The position numbers were made by a program, and so were the translations under genes. A stretch of 40,540 bases of DNA, taken from the NCBI GenBank assembly GCA_030147705.1, contig JASBUV010000099.1, positions 1 to 40,540 on the forward strand, given 5' to 3'. Of this stretch, positions 10,406 through 16,324 are shown one piece after another. Below the pieces are notes generated by a model. It saw only the letters and a list, made by a program, of their open reading frames with translations. It made no database searches and was not told where the DNA came from. Each line of letters begins with the position of its first letter. The stretch's first letter is position 1. Source of the DNA: Gammaproteobacteria bacterium (GTDB lineage Bacteria > Pseudomonadota > Gammaproteobacteria > Pseudomonadales > Pseudohongiellaceae).

Positions 10406-11806
10406 CTACAGTGTACCCAAGAGTGAGTTCGGCAGGGCATCGGTGATACGAACATCCACGAAATTGCCGATCAGGCTTAGATCATCACTGCGGAAATTGA
10501 CCACGCGGTTGTTCTCCGTGCGGCCTTGCAAATCTTCCAGGCTTTTCCGTGATTGTCCGGTAACCAGAATGCGTTCGGTCTTGCCAACCATGCTTTCGCT
10601 GATGGCAGTAGCTTGTTGGACTATCTGTGATTGCAGGGTGGCAAGACGGTGTTTCTTTTCCTGCTCTGGCGTCTCATCTTTCAGGTCTGCAGCCGGAGTC
10701 CCGGGTCGCGCACTGTAAATAAAGCTGAATGATGTATCAAAGCCAATCTCCATGATCAGCTTCATGGTGTCTTCAAAGTCGGCATTGGTTTCACCAGGAA
10801 AGCCGATAATAAAATCCGAAGACAGGCTGATACCGGGCCGTTGCGCCTGAATCTTGCGGATCAGACTCTTGTATTCGAGCGCTGTGTGACCACGTTTCAT
10901 GGCGGCCAGAATGCGATCGGAGCCGCTCTGAACGGGCAGGTGCAAATGAGAGACCAGTTCGGGTACGGTGCCGTAAACCGACACCAGGTTGGCATTGAAT
11001 TCCACCGGGTGTGAGGTAGTGAATCGGATGCGATCGATACCATCGATACTGGCGATGTATTGAATCAGCAATGCCAGGTCGACGATATCGCCTGTGTGGC
11101 TCAGGCCGCGGTACGCATTGACATTCTGACCAAGCAGATTGATTTCCCGCACGCCCTGATCGGCCAGATGCACGGCTTCAGCGAGCACATCATCCAGCGG
11201 CCGACTGACTTCTTCTCCACGGGTATAGGGCACTACACAGAAACTGCAGTATTTGCTGCAACCTTCCATGATGGTAAGAAACGCCTGGCACGATGAGGCC
11301 TCTGGCTGCGGCAGTCGATCGAATTTCTCGATTTCGGGGAAGCTGATATCCACTTGCGGGCCCTGACTGCCAGCTGCTTCGAGCATATCGGGCAATTTGT
11401 GCAGGGTTTGAGGGCCGAAAACCACATCCACGTACGGTGCGCGCTTGCCTATCGCTTCGCCTTCTTGCGAGGCTACACAGCCACCAACGGCGATTTTGAG
11501 GTTTGGATTGGCTTCCTTGAGAGGGCGCCAACGGCCCAGCTGATGGAAGACTTTCTCCTGCGCTTTCTCACGGATTGAACAGGTATTGAGCAGCAGAATA
11601 TCGGCTTGCTCAGGGCTGTCGACCAGTGTGGCACCCTGTGACTCCCGCAAGAGGTCCATCATGCGGGCAGAATCATACTCATTCATCTGACATCCGTGAG
11701 TCTTGATGAAGACTTTGCGGGCAGGGCTTCGGCTCTGCGTAGTGGTCTCGTCAGATTGTGGGGTAATCGTGCTCTCAGTAGTCACAGCAATCTCGGCTGA
11801 TGGCAA
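10406..11806 (-). CDS. miaB: tRNA-2-methylthio-N6-dimethylallyladenosine synthase
   Basis: 466 aa; [14 protein letters not shown], radical [22 protein letters not shown] domain at C-terminus. Confidence 0.97.
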
Positions 11807-11978
11807 AAGGGGCGGAATTATAACAGCAAATCCCGAGGCTGCTGCATCTCCTTGTACAGATTTACTTCGAGAGCAGCTTGAAATTCTTCCCCTGAGCCAA
11901 ATATTAGGGGTACTCTGGGGTTTTCGCCCTGTCTACTCCGGAAATAAACTATCCTCGCAGTATAAGGTATTGATTTTA

Positions 11979-12317
11979 ATGGCAAATCCTTCCGAAATTT
12001 ACAAGATCACCTTTCTCAACAAAGGTGAGGTCTACGAACTTTTCGTCAAACAGGTCTATCAGAGCGAACTCTACGGATTTATCGAGGTTGAAGAGTACGT
12101 ATTCAACGAACGTACTCAGGTCGTAGTTGACCCCAGTGAGGAGAAACTGAAAGCTGAATTCAAGGATGTACGGCGCAGCTTTATTCCGTTGCAGGCGATT
12201 ATTCGTATTGATGAAGTCGATAAAACCGGAGTCAGCAAAATCAGCAAGGGTGACAATATTTCCCCGTTCCCCGTGTCGCTGGTAGCCAGCAGCAAAGACA
12301 AGGGTGAGCCGAAGTAG
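11979..12317 (+). CDS. DUF1820 family protein
   Basis: In-frame ATG at 11979 within the longer ORF 11703..12317; MANPSEIYKITFLNKGEVYELFVKQVYQSELYGFIEVEEYVF matches the DUF1820 pattern as I recognise it. Confidence 0.8.
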   Translation: MANPSEIYKITFLNKGEVYELFVKQVYQSELYGFIEVEEYVFNERTQVVVDPSEEKLKAEFKDVRRSFIPLQAIIRIDEVDKTGVSKISKGDNISPFPVSLVASSKDKGEPK

Positions 12318-13400: not shown

Positions 13401-14351
13401 TCAGAGCGATTCCGCCGCAGGCTCTGCGGCAGGAGTAGCGCTTTCCTGTTTGAGTGCTGGACCGGCGATCTGCTCAGCGTTGGTCATATACACGTGTGGC
13501 AAACCGGATTCCTCTAACCAGGCGATGGCCTCATTTTCCGGTTTCAGCATGGCAATGGTGGCAAAAGAACCTGCCACAGTGCACAGATTCGCAGCCACGC
13601 TCACAGCACGCAGCCCCTTGCTTGGCCAACCCGTTTTGGGGTTCAGGATGTGGCTGTAGCGTTCACCATTCAGCTCAAAATAGCGTTCGTAGTCGCCGCT
13701 GGAAGCGAGGCCGCCGGCACTGAGATCGATCTTGGCCATCATTGAGCGGCGCTCGCCCGGATTTGCAATCCCGACTGTCCACGGCCGTTCTCCTGGTTGC
13801 TCGCCGATTACCGCGAAGTCCCCACCAAGATTGATCAGGCCATGCTGAATGCCCATGCGTCTGGCCATCTTCGCTGCCGCATCAGCGGCGTATTCCTTGA
13901 CGATACCACCGAGATCCAGCTCCATTCCGGCCGGAAGATGCAAACGTTGCCCCTGCCAGCTTAGTTTGTGGAAACCAACGCTGCGCAGCACTTTGTCAAT
14001 GGAATCCTGAGCCGGGATTCGCGCCTGACGAAAATCCCAGAGCCTGTAAAGAGCTCCGGCAGTGACGTCGAACAGGCCTTCACTTTCCTCGAAGCATTTG
14101 AGCGCGTGGTTCAGAATGCCGCGCGTCTCGGTATCAATCTTGATGCCGAGTTTGCTGCCAGCAGACAGGTTGATCTCAGTAATAAAACTGTCGCGTCTAT
14201 AGCGGGAATACTTCTTGTCGAGACGACTGACTTCGCGTGCAAGCTCCTGAATGCGTTGGCGAGCATTGATGCGTGAAGAGTCGTAAATCTGAATTTCGCA
14301 GGGTACGCCCATGGCCTGAAAGCCATAGCGTTTAAGAGTGGCAGTGGTCAT
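13401..14351 (-). CDS. apbE: ApbE-family FAD:protein FMN transferase
   Basis: 316 aa; FQAMGVPCEI, DVTAGALYRLW, DLGGIVKEYAAD, GLINLGGDFAVIG, YSHILNPKTGWPS. Confidence 0.92.
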   Translation of the reverse strand: MTTATLKRYGFQAMGVPCEIQIYDSSRINARQRIQELAREVSRLDKKYSRYRRDSFITEINLSAGSKLGIKIDTETRGILNHALKCFEESEGLFDVTAGALYRLWDFRQARIPAQDSIDKVLRSVGFHKLSWQGQRLHLPAGMELDLGGIVKEYAADAAAKMARRMGIQHGLINLGGDFAVIGEQPGERPWTVGIANPGERRSMMAKIDLSAGGLASSGDYERYFELNGERYSHILNPKTGWPSKGLRAVSVAANLCTVAGSFATIAMLKPENEAIAWLEESGLPHVYMTNAEQIAGPALKQESATPAAEPAAESL

Positions 14352-14365
14352 AAAGCAGAAATTGC

Positions 14366-15529
14366 CTAAAACGTAAAATCGAATCCCAGAGATACCCGGG
14401 TGTAACTGACCAGAGCTGCGCCTGGTTGGGTGACAGCATAGGCAGAGTGCTTGTGATCTGCAACATATCTTTCCGCTGTCAGTGTGGCTGTCCAGTCATT
14501 AATCGACGCGACGATACTCGCACCGCCACTGAATGCACCATAGGCTGAGAGTCGATAATCGCTCGATTGGAATTCAGTGAGCGGTTTGAGGAAGTCGTCA
14601 ATATTCGTGTAGAAATCTGCAGCGGACTGGCTGTAGTAGCGCAGATTGGGAACAAGCTGCCAGCGATTACCAAGGTTTTGATGCCAGGCCACACTCAAAG
14701 TGTGTGAGCTGACTCCAAAATCATCGTGATAGTAACGATAATCCGTGTGCAGCGCAGCGTCTGCATTTACGACGAAATAGCGGTAGGCGCCGCTAAGAGC
14801 AATCTGGGTCTTATTGTCTGGTCGTACATCCCGAAATTTATACGGATCACTGAGAAACCCGGATTGCTCAGTCAGACTGCCTGCCAACTGAAACGTGGAG
14901 CGCTGGTTAATGATCTGGCTAATGCTGATAACGGCAGATGAACTCTGTTTGTCTGCATTGCGAACCCGATTGAAAATAGCGGCATCAGTGGGAAAGATAT
15001 CATCAGCGGAATGGCTGATACCGACAGACACGGTAGTCATTCCTTCGTTGATTGTCTTCTGCCCGGAAAAACTGAAATAGGTAGCGCGATAGTCGTTCTC
15101 TTCAGAATAACCAACAGCGCCCCCGATGCTTCCGTCGCTCAAATAGTAACGCACACCCACAGCTAACTCACTGCGCTCATCGGTAATGCCGCTGGCGCCG
15201 CTCATGTTGATGATTGGGCTGCCGTTCGTGCCTGCGGTCGTAAACCAGGGAGATGCCCCGCTCATGTTTTCATGATTGGCATCGATCTGGAGCGAGTAAT
15301 CGCGACCTACTGGAGTGAGCAGGCGGAATTGATGGACGTCGATGTCATAGCGCTCAAGACTCCCGAACGGAACCTGGGAGCGGCTCATGTCATCTTCGTT
15401 GTAGTTGGAGAATTTGTAGGAGAGCGTGGTTTGTGGCGGTGGTGCATCTCCTGATGCAATGCCCGGTATGGCCAGAGCGGTGCTGGACAGTGCCAGAAGG
15501 GATTTGGAGCGCTGCCGAAAGGGTTTCAT
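14366..15529 (-). CDS. DUF3570 domain-containing protein, predicted outer-membrane beta-barrel
   Basis: 387 aa; signal-like N-terminus, alternating beta-strand pattern, terminal aromatic (VSLGFDFTF), MSGASPW motif; located between ApbE and DUF4266 genes. Confidence 0.8.
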   Translation of the reverse strand: MKPFRQRSKSLLALSSTALAIPGIASGDAPPPQTTLSYKFSNYNEDDMSRSQVPFGSLERYDIDVHQFRLLTPVGRDYSLQIDANHENMSGASPWFTTAGTNGSPIINMSGASGITDERSELAVGVRYYLSDGSIGGAVGYSEENDYRATYFSFSGQKTINEGMTTVSVGISHSADDIFPTDAAIFNRVRNADKQSSSAVISISQIINQRSTFQLAGSLTEQSGFLSDPYKFRDVRPDNKTQIALSGAYRYFVVNADAALHTDYRYYHDDFGVSSHTLSVAWHQNLGNRWQLVPNLRYYSQSAADFYTNIDDFLKPLTEFQSSDYRLSAYGAFSGGASIVASINDWTATLTAERYVADHKHSAYAVTQPGAALVSYTRVSLGFDFTF

Positions 15530-15550
15530 GGCTTTGCAGAGATTCCTGTC

Positions 15551-15769
15551 TCAGTTACAACCGCAGCCACCACCCGCTGCGCTATTACCTCCGGAAGAGG
15601 CTTCCTTGCTGAAAAAAATATGATCGTTCAATGCGGCTTCGAGCGGGTCGGCGTCCCAGGCCATTTCTTTCTTGGCGAGATAACCCATTTCCCACGGTCG
15701 GACCTGAGTACAACTCGCGAGCAGCACAGCAAGCGCAAGCAAGACGACTGATTTGAGCGACAGTTTCAT
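15551..15769 (-). CDS. DUF4266 domain-containing small lipoprotein
   Basis: 72 aa; lipobox LLASC|TQVRPWEMGYLAKKEMAWD, C-terminal GGGCGCN. Confidence 0.82.
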   Translation of the reverse strand: MKLSLKSVVLLALAVLLASCTQVRPWEMGYLAKKEMAWDADPLEAALNDHIFFSKEASSGGNSAAGGGCGCN

Positions 15770-15772
15770 TGC

Positions 15773-16324
15773 TCAGTTACCGGCCAGGAGTTTCTGAATC
15801 TCAGCTTCGATAATTTCGATGTCACCATTGCGAAAGCCCATGTGGACAAGTTTGACTTCGCCGTCCGGTGAAATCAGGTAAGACGAAGGCATGCCAATTA
15901 CGCCAAACAGTTCGGCCGAATCACCGTCGGGATCAGCTGGAATCAGGAAATCGAGTGGTGTATCCAGCAAAAAGTCGAGGCCATCTTCTATGGGGTTGTC
16001 GAGATTGATAGCGACAATTTCGAAGCCCTGATCGCGGTACTTGTGATAGAGGTCGTTATACAGTGGCAGCGAAGTCAGGCACGGGGCGCACCAGGAGGCC
16101 CAGAAGTCAACATAGACGGTTTTGCCCGCAAGGTCGGCCAGGGCAATCTCAGGCTGGTTCTCGTAGATTGATGGCAGCGTAAAATCCGGTGCAGGTTCTC
16201 CTTCTTCAACCGCGTTGACAGTGCCGGCCAGCAACAGCGTTGCTGCAGGGATCAAGATGCTGATGGCCCGGGACTTCAGAATCTGGGCTCTCTCAACCGC
16301 CCACTGTAGGATTTCGTTGCTCAT
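15773..16324 (-). CDS. TlpA-like thioredoxin-fold protein, exported
   Basis: 183 aa; hydrophobic N-terminal segment, GEPAPDFTLPS, active site FWASWCAPC. Confidence 0.9.
   Translation of the reverse strand: MSNEILQWAVERAQILKSRAISILIPAATLLLAGTVNAVEEGEPAPDFTLPSIYENQPEIALADLAGKTVYVDFWASWCAPCLTSLPLYNDLYHKYRDQGFEIVAINLDNPIEDGLDFLLDTPLDFLIPADPDGDSAELFGVIGMPSSYLISPDGEVKLVHMGFRNGDIEIIEAEIQKLLAGN

Follow-up and report, generated by a model that had tools for sequence, protein, structure and literature searches.

The closest described counterpart of the operon analyzed here is the flavinylation system reported by Méheust et al. (2021, eLife; PMC8238504), in which DUF3570, a protein with two [S/T]GA[S/T] motifs, is a substrate of ApbE. 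In that study, clusters combining ApbE, DUF3570, a thioredoxin-like protein and DUF4266 were found in 285 cases with DsbD and in 316 cases without it. DUF3570 from Chlorobium luteolum was flavinylated by its cognate ApbE, both sites being modified; when co-expressed in E. coli, it was recovered in the cell pellet and purified in denatured form, yet it was flavinylated (PMC8238504). Two further kinds of ApbE are relevant for comparison. Those of the NQR/RNF/NosR systems (Ftp) also are FAD:protein FMN transferases acting on an [S/T]GA[S/T] motif but, unlike the ApbE described below, they are periplasmic, with a lipoprotein signal and an Asp metal ligand. The cytosolic ApbE of Klebsiella pneumoniae resembles it in having no signal peptide, although it acts on a soluble fumarate reductase of the cytosol and not on an exported outer-membrane barrel (PMC12052999).

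The window, i.e. the whole stretch of 40,540 nucleotides that was analyzed, derives from a gammaproteobacterium of the family Pseudohongiellaceae (contig JASBUV010000099.1). It contains an operon that belongs to the published TlpA/DUF4266/DUF3570/ApbE flavinylation system, being one more and ordinary representative of a known, little-studied group. Its proposal as a new candidate system was therefore discarded, as the system had been published in 2021 (PMC8238504). As in the published clusters, the same four families, two [S/T]GA[S/T] motifs and a C-terminal CXC in DUF4266 are present; DsbD is optional, and many published clusters are without it, as is the window operon. Unlike in the published DsbD subtype, DsbD is encoded on another contig in this genome (the only DsbD_TM match being on contig C252), and the thioredoxin-like protein is of the AhpC-TSA/Redoxin type instead of PF13899. 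The features of the operon are the following:

15773..16324, minus strand: TlpA/ResA-like exported thioredoxin-fold protein with WCAPC, 183 aa, first gene of the operon (Pfam)
16079..16090, minus strand: CAPC redox motif of the TlpA-like protein (translation)
15551..15769, minus strand: DUF4266 lipoprotein, 72 aa (PF14086, 6.1e-22; lipobox LASC)
15710..15712, minus strand: lipobox cysteine Cys20 of DUF4266 (translation; alignment of homologues)
15551..15565, minus strand: C-terminal CGCN plus stop of DUF4266, dithiol tail (translation; homologue comparison)
14366..15529, minus strand: DUF3570, 387 aa, ApbE substrate, predicted 16-strand outer-membrane beta-barrel (PF12094, 1.6e-54; AlphaFold2; Foldseek)
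15251..15262, minus strand: first SGAS flavinylation motif of DUF3570, residues 90-93 (motif as in PMC8238504)
15191..15202, minus strand: second SGAS flavinylation motif of DUF3570, residues 110-113 (motif as in PMC8238504)
13401..14351, minus strand: ApbE FAD:protein FMN transferase, 316 aa, without signal peptide (PF02424, 2.4e-75; N-terminus analysis)
14310..14351, minus strand: ApbE N-terminus, MTTATLKRYGFQAM (translation)
13893..13895, minus strand: ApbE Glu153, a Gly in canonical ApbEs (mature Gly170 in E. coli; alignment, mapping to E. coli Ftp)
13569..13571, minus strand: ApbE Gly261, replacing metal-site-1 ligand Asp280 of E. coli Ftp (alignment; PMC4767422)

The four tightly spaced minus-strand genes of the original prediction were all recovered as open reading frames at these coordinates, with matches above the Pfam cut-offs; the gaps from TlpA through DUF4266 and DUF3570 to ApbE are 3, 21 and 14 nt. 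Its exported WCAPC thioredoxin-fold protein matched AhpC-TSA (1.1e-21) and Redoxin (2.2e-20), the best solved relative being 3gl3, a 'putative DsbE' (5.8e-38), and its 72-aa lipoprotein with a Cys-rich tail was likewise confirmed (lipobox LASC with Cys20, C-terminus CGCN). A fatty-acid desaturase gene lies upstream on the same strand and a gene for a SrkA-type kinase past ApbE on the opposite strand. Since both recur around the operon in a Pseudohongiella chromosome (L098), its position is stable. No consensus site was found in a promoter scan upstream of the operon, and no metal transporter, redox partner or acceptor is encoded beside it. The statement that no usual ApbE substrate is encoded nearby was wrong. 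Pfam gave no match within the window to FMN_bind, as an NQR/RNF flavinylation locus would have (the FMN_bind matches of the genome are on contigs C276 and C20), but DUF3570 with its two SGAS motifs is itself a known substrate, encoded in the operon. Elsewhere in the window, a DUF1820 protein (11703-12317) begins at a TTG that gives it a long N-terminal extension, overlapping a miaB-like gene on the opposite strand; its real start probably lies further downstream.

Conservation of the gene set was analyzed in two samples. Among 399 genomes of the phylum, 30 encoded DUF3570, with adjoining DUF4266 and TlpA-like genes in nearly all of them and ApbE in most. A scan of the collection yielded 80 additional loci, 55 of which had sufficient flank on both sides; the four-gene set was complete in 46 of these 55 and at least three of the genes were present in 54, so that the association is not a chance one. 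The co-occurrence of DUF3570 and DUF4266 with ApbE and TlpA that had been expected across genomes was thus found, and the view of the operon as a self-contained unit was borne out by the co-conservation of its genes. The closest DUF3570 relatives (56-74% identity) were from Pseudohongiella and unclassified marine Gammaproteobacteria. In Bacteroidota, the gene order was mostly ApbE, DUF4266, DUF3570. In relatives from Methylobacter, Duganella and Chlorobi, the gene immediately after ApbE was DsbD.

The operon had been proposed to encode its own flavinylated partner, either DUF3570 or DUF4266. DUF4266 was dismissed for this role, as it is devoid of an [S/T]GA[S/T] motif. Its Cys20 was invariant in 35 aligned homologues and its C-terminus was Cys-Gly-Cys-X in 161 of the 161 proteins examined, and it is better read as a putative thiol partner than as a flavinylated one. 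Modeled alone with AlphaFold2, it gave low confidence (pLDDT 66; tail below 50), the tail being predicted to be disordered. DUF3570, which contains the two SGAS motifs, is the likely flavinylated partner. Regarding the sites themselves, the V. cholerae-type motif requires an Asp three positions ahead of the initial Ser/Thr of SGA[S/T] (PMC10722498). In the window DUF3570 this position is occupied by Glu at the first site and by Ile at the second, and site 2 also lacks an acidic residue in most of the Pseudomonadota DUF3570s examined. Because of the Ile, use of the second site is uncertain, and it may not be used in the window protein.

In line with the outer-membrane barrel that had been predicted for DUF3570, AlphaFold2 (57 sequences) returned a 16-strand barrel (pLDDT 89.4, pTM 0.85). 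Foldseek with this model retrieved outer-membrane barrels such as FadL, PfeA, PelB and OmpG, none of them specific, and a sequence search against solved structures revealed no relative (best E 0.04). The orientation was assigned from loop lengths: loops on the long side averaged 14.5 residues and the opposite turns 2.9, with both termini on the short-turn side, and for these reasons the long loops were taken as extracellular. Loop 92-114, which in this model presumably faces outward, holds both SGAS motifs within it or at its edge. Mean conservation was 0.55 in the long loops vs. 0.36 in the turns; residues conserved in at least 90% of the sequences were mostly at the long-loop end, with both FMN motifs among the most conserved. 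Since the surface loops of porins are usually their variable part, this profile points to a functional site at that end of DUF3570.

Flavinylation of exported proteins is described as an extracytosolic reaction. The window ApbE, however, lacks the N-terminal lipoprotein or secretion signal of canonical secreted ApbE/Ftp proteins: only about 10 residues precede the catalytic domain, without any hydrophobic segment. An alternative start further upstream that might supply a signal peptide was excluded, as no in-frame ATG, GTG or TTG occurs before the preceding stop. By sequence, the ApbE of this candidate extracytoplasmic system is not itself extracytoplasmic, even if the absence of a signal peptide does not prove a cytosolic location. 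This feature was then compared across relatives by a simple hydropathy measure (11-residue Kyte-Doolittle mean of at least 1.8 ahead of the domain), which is cruder than a signal-peptide predictor. By this measure, a hydrophobic N-terminal stretch was present in one of 87 DUF3570-linked ApbEs (Pseudomonadota and one Chlorobi) vs. 26 of 28 unlinked ApbEs from the same genomes, these controls being 31 entries minus three that were themselves DUF3570-linked (L061-L063). The controls include the separate, canonical Nqr-linked ApbE of the window's own genome. Further, 70 of the 87 linked proteins have fewer than 20 residues of room ahead of the domain. The Chlorobi ApbEs recovered in a larger sample were all likewise signal-less; one of them (L195) read 1.85, but only from a far-upstream start, and has another start seven residues ahead of the domain. 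Overall, of about 115 linked ApbEs from two phyla, Pseudomonadota and Chlorobi, nearly all were signal-less.

The same ApbEs differ from canonical ones at two positions. In the alignment to E. coli Ftp, position 261 corresponds to Asp280 and position 153 to Gly170, which adjoins Glu169; in Ftp, Asp280 is a ligand of metal site 1 and Glu169 of metal 2 (PMC4767422). Of the canonical metal-site-1 pair, the window ApbE retains Thr284 (as Thr265) and has Gly261 in place of Asp280. Position 153 was Glu in 91/91 linked ApbEs and in 0/28 unlinked ones, and position 261 was Gly in 89 of the 91 linked proteins (the other two being gaps), whereas all 28 unlinked ApbEs had Gly at 153 and Asp or Glu at 261. 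In a tree computed without columns 153 and 261, linked Pseudomonadota and Chlorobi ApbEs were split from all others (SH-aLRT 96), and one change suffices for each swap, congruent with the clade. The loss of Asp at a metal ligand could mean an altered ApbE activity, and Glu153 may substitute for it as a ligand. DUF3570-linked ApbEs of Bacteroidota were canonical at both positions, and approximately half of them had a signal peptide; judging from these sequences, a cytosolic route would not be general for the DUF3570 family.

Taken as a whole, we propose with a probability of roughly 0.68 that the window operon, as a member of the published system, uses cytosolic flavinylation before export, surface FMNs and an electron supply through TlpA and DUF4266. 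The signal-less ApbE would move FMN from cytosolic FAD to Ser93, Ser113 or both, in the SGAS motifs of the DUF3570 precursor, before or during Sec export. After export, DUF3570 would assemble in the outer membrane into a barrel of 16 strands, with both FMNs on the outward loop between strands 3 and 4, at the conserved barrel end. A periplasmic DsbD-type protein would reduce the TlpA-like protein, which would in turn reduce the Cys-Gly-Cys tail of DUF4266, and this flexible tail would hand electrons to the FMN pair and from there to an acceptor at the cell surface. The chain from DsbD through TlpA and DUF4266 to FMN is offered as a proposal only, being the simplest one; it resembles the electron path suggested by Méheust et al. 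for the DsbD clusters (PMC8238504).

V. cholerae ApbE failed on a folded target in vitro (PMC10722498), which favors modification of DUF3570 before folding. Further, should the folded barrel carry its motifs on the outer side, they would be out of reach for a periplasmic ApbE once assembly is complete. Together with the flavinylated C. luteolum DUF3570 in the cell pellet and the missing signal peptide, these points favor flavinylation in the cytosol ahead of Sec, which is assumed to accept the FMN-bearing chain. On balance, it seems somewhat probable that FMN is here attached covalently to an outer-membrane protein while this is still in the cytosol, by ApbEs of a dedicated signal-less clade whose metal site has been rebuilt, and that the protein is exported and folded afterwards, its flavins ending up at the surface. 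Alternatively, ApbE might reach the periplasm without a recognizable signal, by means of a partner or non-classical export, and modify DUF3570 there while still unfolded. Most studied ApbEs are indeed periplasmic lipoproteins (PMC12052999), and the signal peptides of about half of the Bacteroidota enzymes are in keeping with periplasmic flavinylation; nevertheless, we regard this alternative as unlikely, given that the window ApbE has neither an upstream start codon nor a hydrophobic segment, that this state extends to nearly all linked ApbEs of two phyla and that a cytosolic ApbE is known from Klebsiella (PMC12052999).

Other readings concern the purpose of the flavins. The system could be mainly a thiol or metal relay, in which the Cys-Gly-Cys tail of DUF4266 would bind a metal (iron or copper) delivered via the barrel, and this metal would be reduced for uptake by the DUF3570 flavin. 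The invariant CGC-X tail could bind metal, and the iron transporter VIT1 was found in 25 of the published clusters (PMC8238504), but no metal transporter was found beside the window operon or in those relatives whose flanks were read, and DsbD and TlpA as partners are in keeping with thiol redox, making a metal relay improbable. In linked lineages, the DUF3570 FMNs might instead feed large outer-membrane haem lipoproteins or cytochromes, e.g. of the RoxC type. RoxC-type haem lipoprotein genes were located beside the operon in several gammaproteobacterial lineages:

L121, 627-3206: directly upstream, same strand
L124, 586-3147: directly upstream, same strand
L129, 6260-9145: nearby
L143, 1-2034: nearby
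L254, 7471-9939: nearby
L256, 3113-5146: nearby

L143 and L256 appear to be one and the same sequence. In a 369-genome sample, both genomes with strong Rox matches have DUF3570 within approximately 3.5 kb of a rox gene, and multihaem or DUF1501 proteins are encoded near other loci. Against this, the linkage is confined to few lineages, no RoxC match was found in the window's genome (an assembly that is 78% complete) and RoxC lacks an assigned function in the literature (PMC10837239). RoxC was therefore ruled out as a general partner, and haem lipoproteins as the destination of the electrons are rather doubtful, though those of the RoxC type may be one acceptor.

The available part of PMC8238504 does not discuss the missing ApbE signal peptide, the altered metal site or the position of the motifs on the barrel. 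The signal-less ApbE clade, the loop position of the motifs and the CGC-X tail shared by the DUF4266 proteins examined have apparently gone unnoticed in the literature. That ApbE is signal-less and altered throughout the clade seems to have been overlooked, and confirmation of cytosolic flavinylation would make this trait of interest. Were the cytosolic route true, Sec and the barrel-assembly machinery would accept a flavin-loaded precursor, FAD export would no longer be needed in the DUF3570 system, and Gram-negative cells would have a way to display flavin on their exterior. Concrete partners for the DUF3570 system are provided by the dithiol tail of DUF4266 and by the link to lipoproteins of the RoxC type.

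Variants of the cluster were also observed. A second Pseudomonadota type (L066, L067 and L068) consists of TlpA, DUF4266 and DUF3570 without an adjoining ApbE; a canonical-type ApbE lies 7-19 kb away (those of L066 and L068 have a signal peptide), and the L066 cluster also encodes an HZS_alpha-like lipoprotein and small barrels. The DUF3570 motif in these loci is SSAS, SNAS or SGAS. The SSAS and SNAS forms were at one point read as a loss of flavinylation, an interpretation that was withdrawn since ApbE-adjacent DUF3570s of Bacteroidota share such motifs. The Bacteroidota DUF3570s encoded beside a canonical ApbE (L203-L222) mostly have [S/T]SAS instead of [S/T]GA[S/T], possibly a variant flavinylation motif. 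Finally, DUF3570 also occurs as double-length proteins (832 and 912 aa) and as tandem genes (L156 and L160 in genome G400; L071, 3266-6004, in genome G102), suggesting versions that could carry more than two FMNs.
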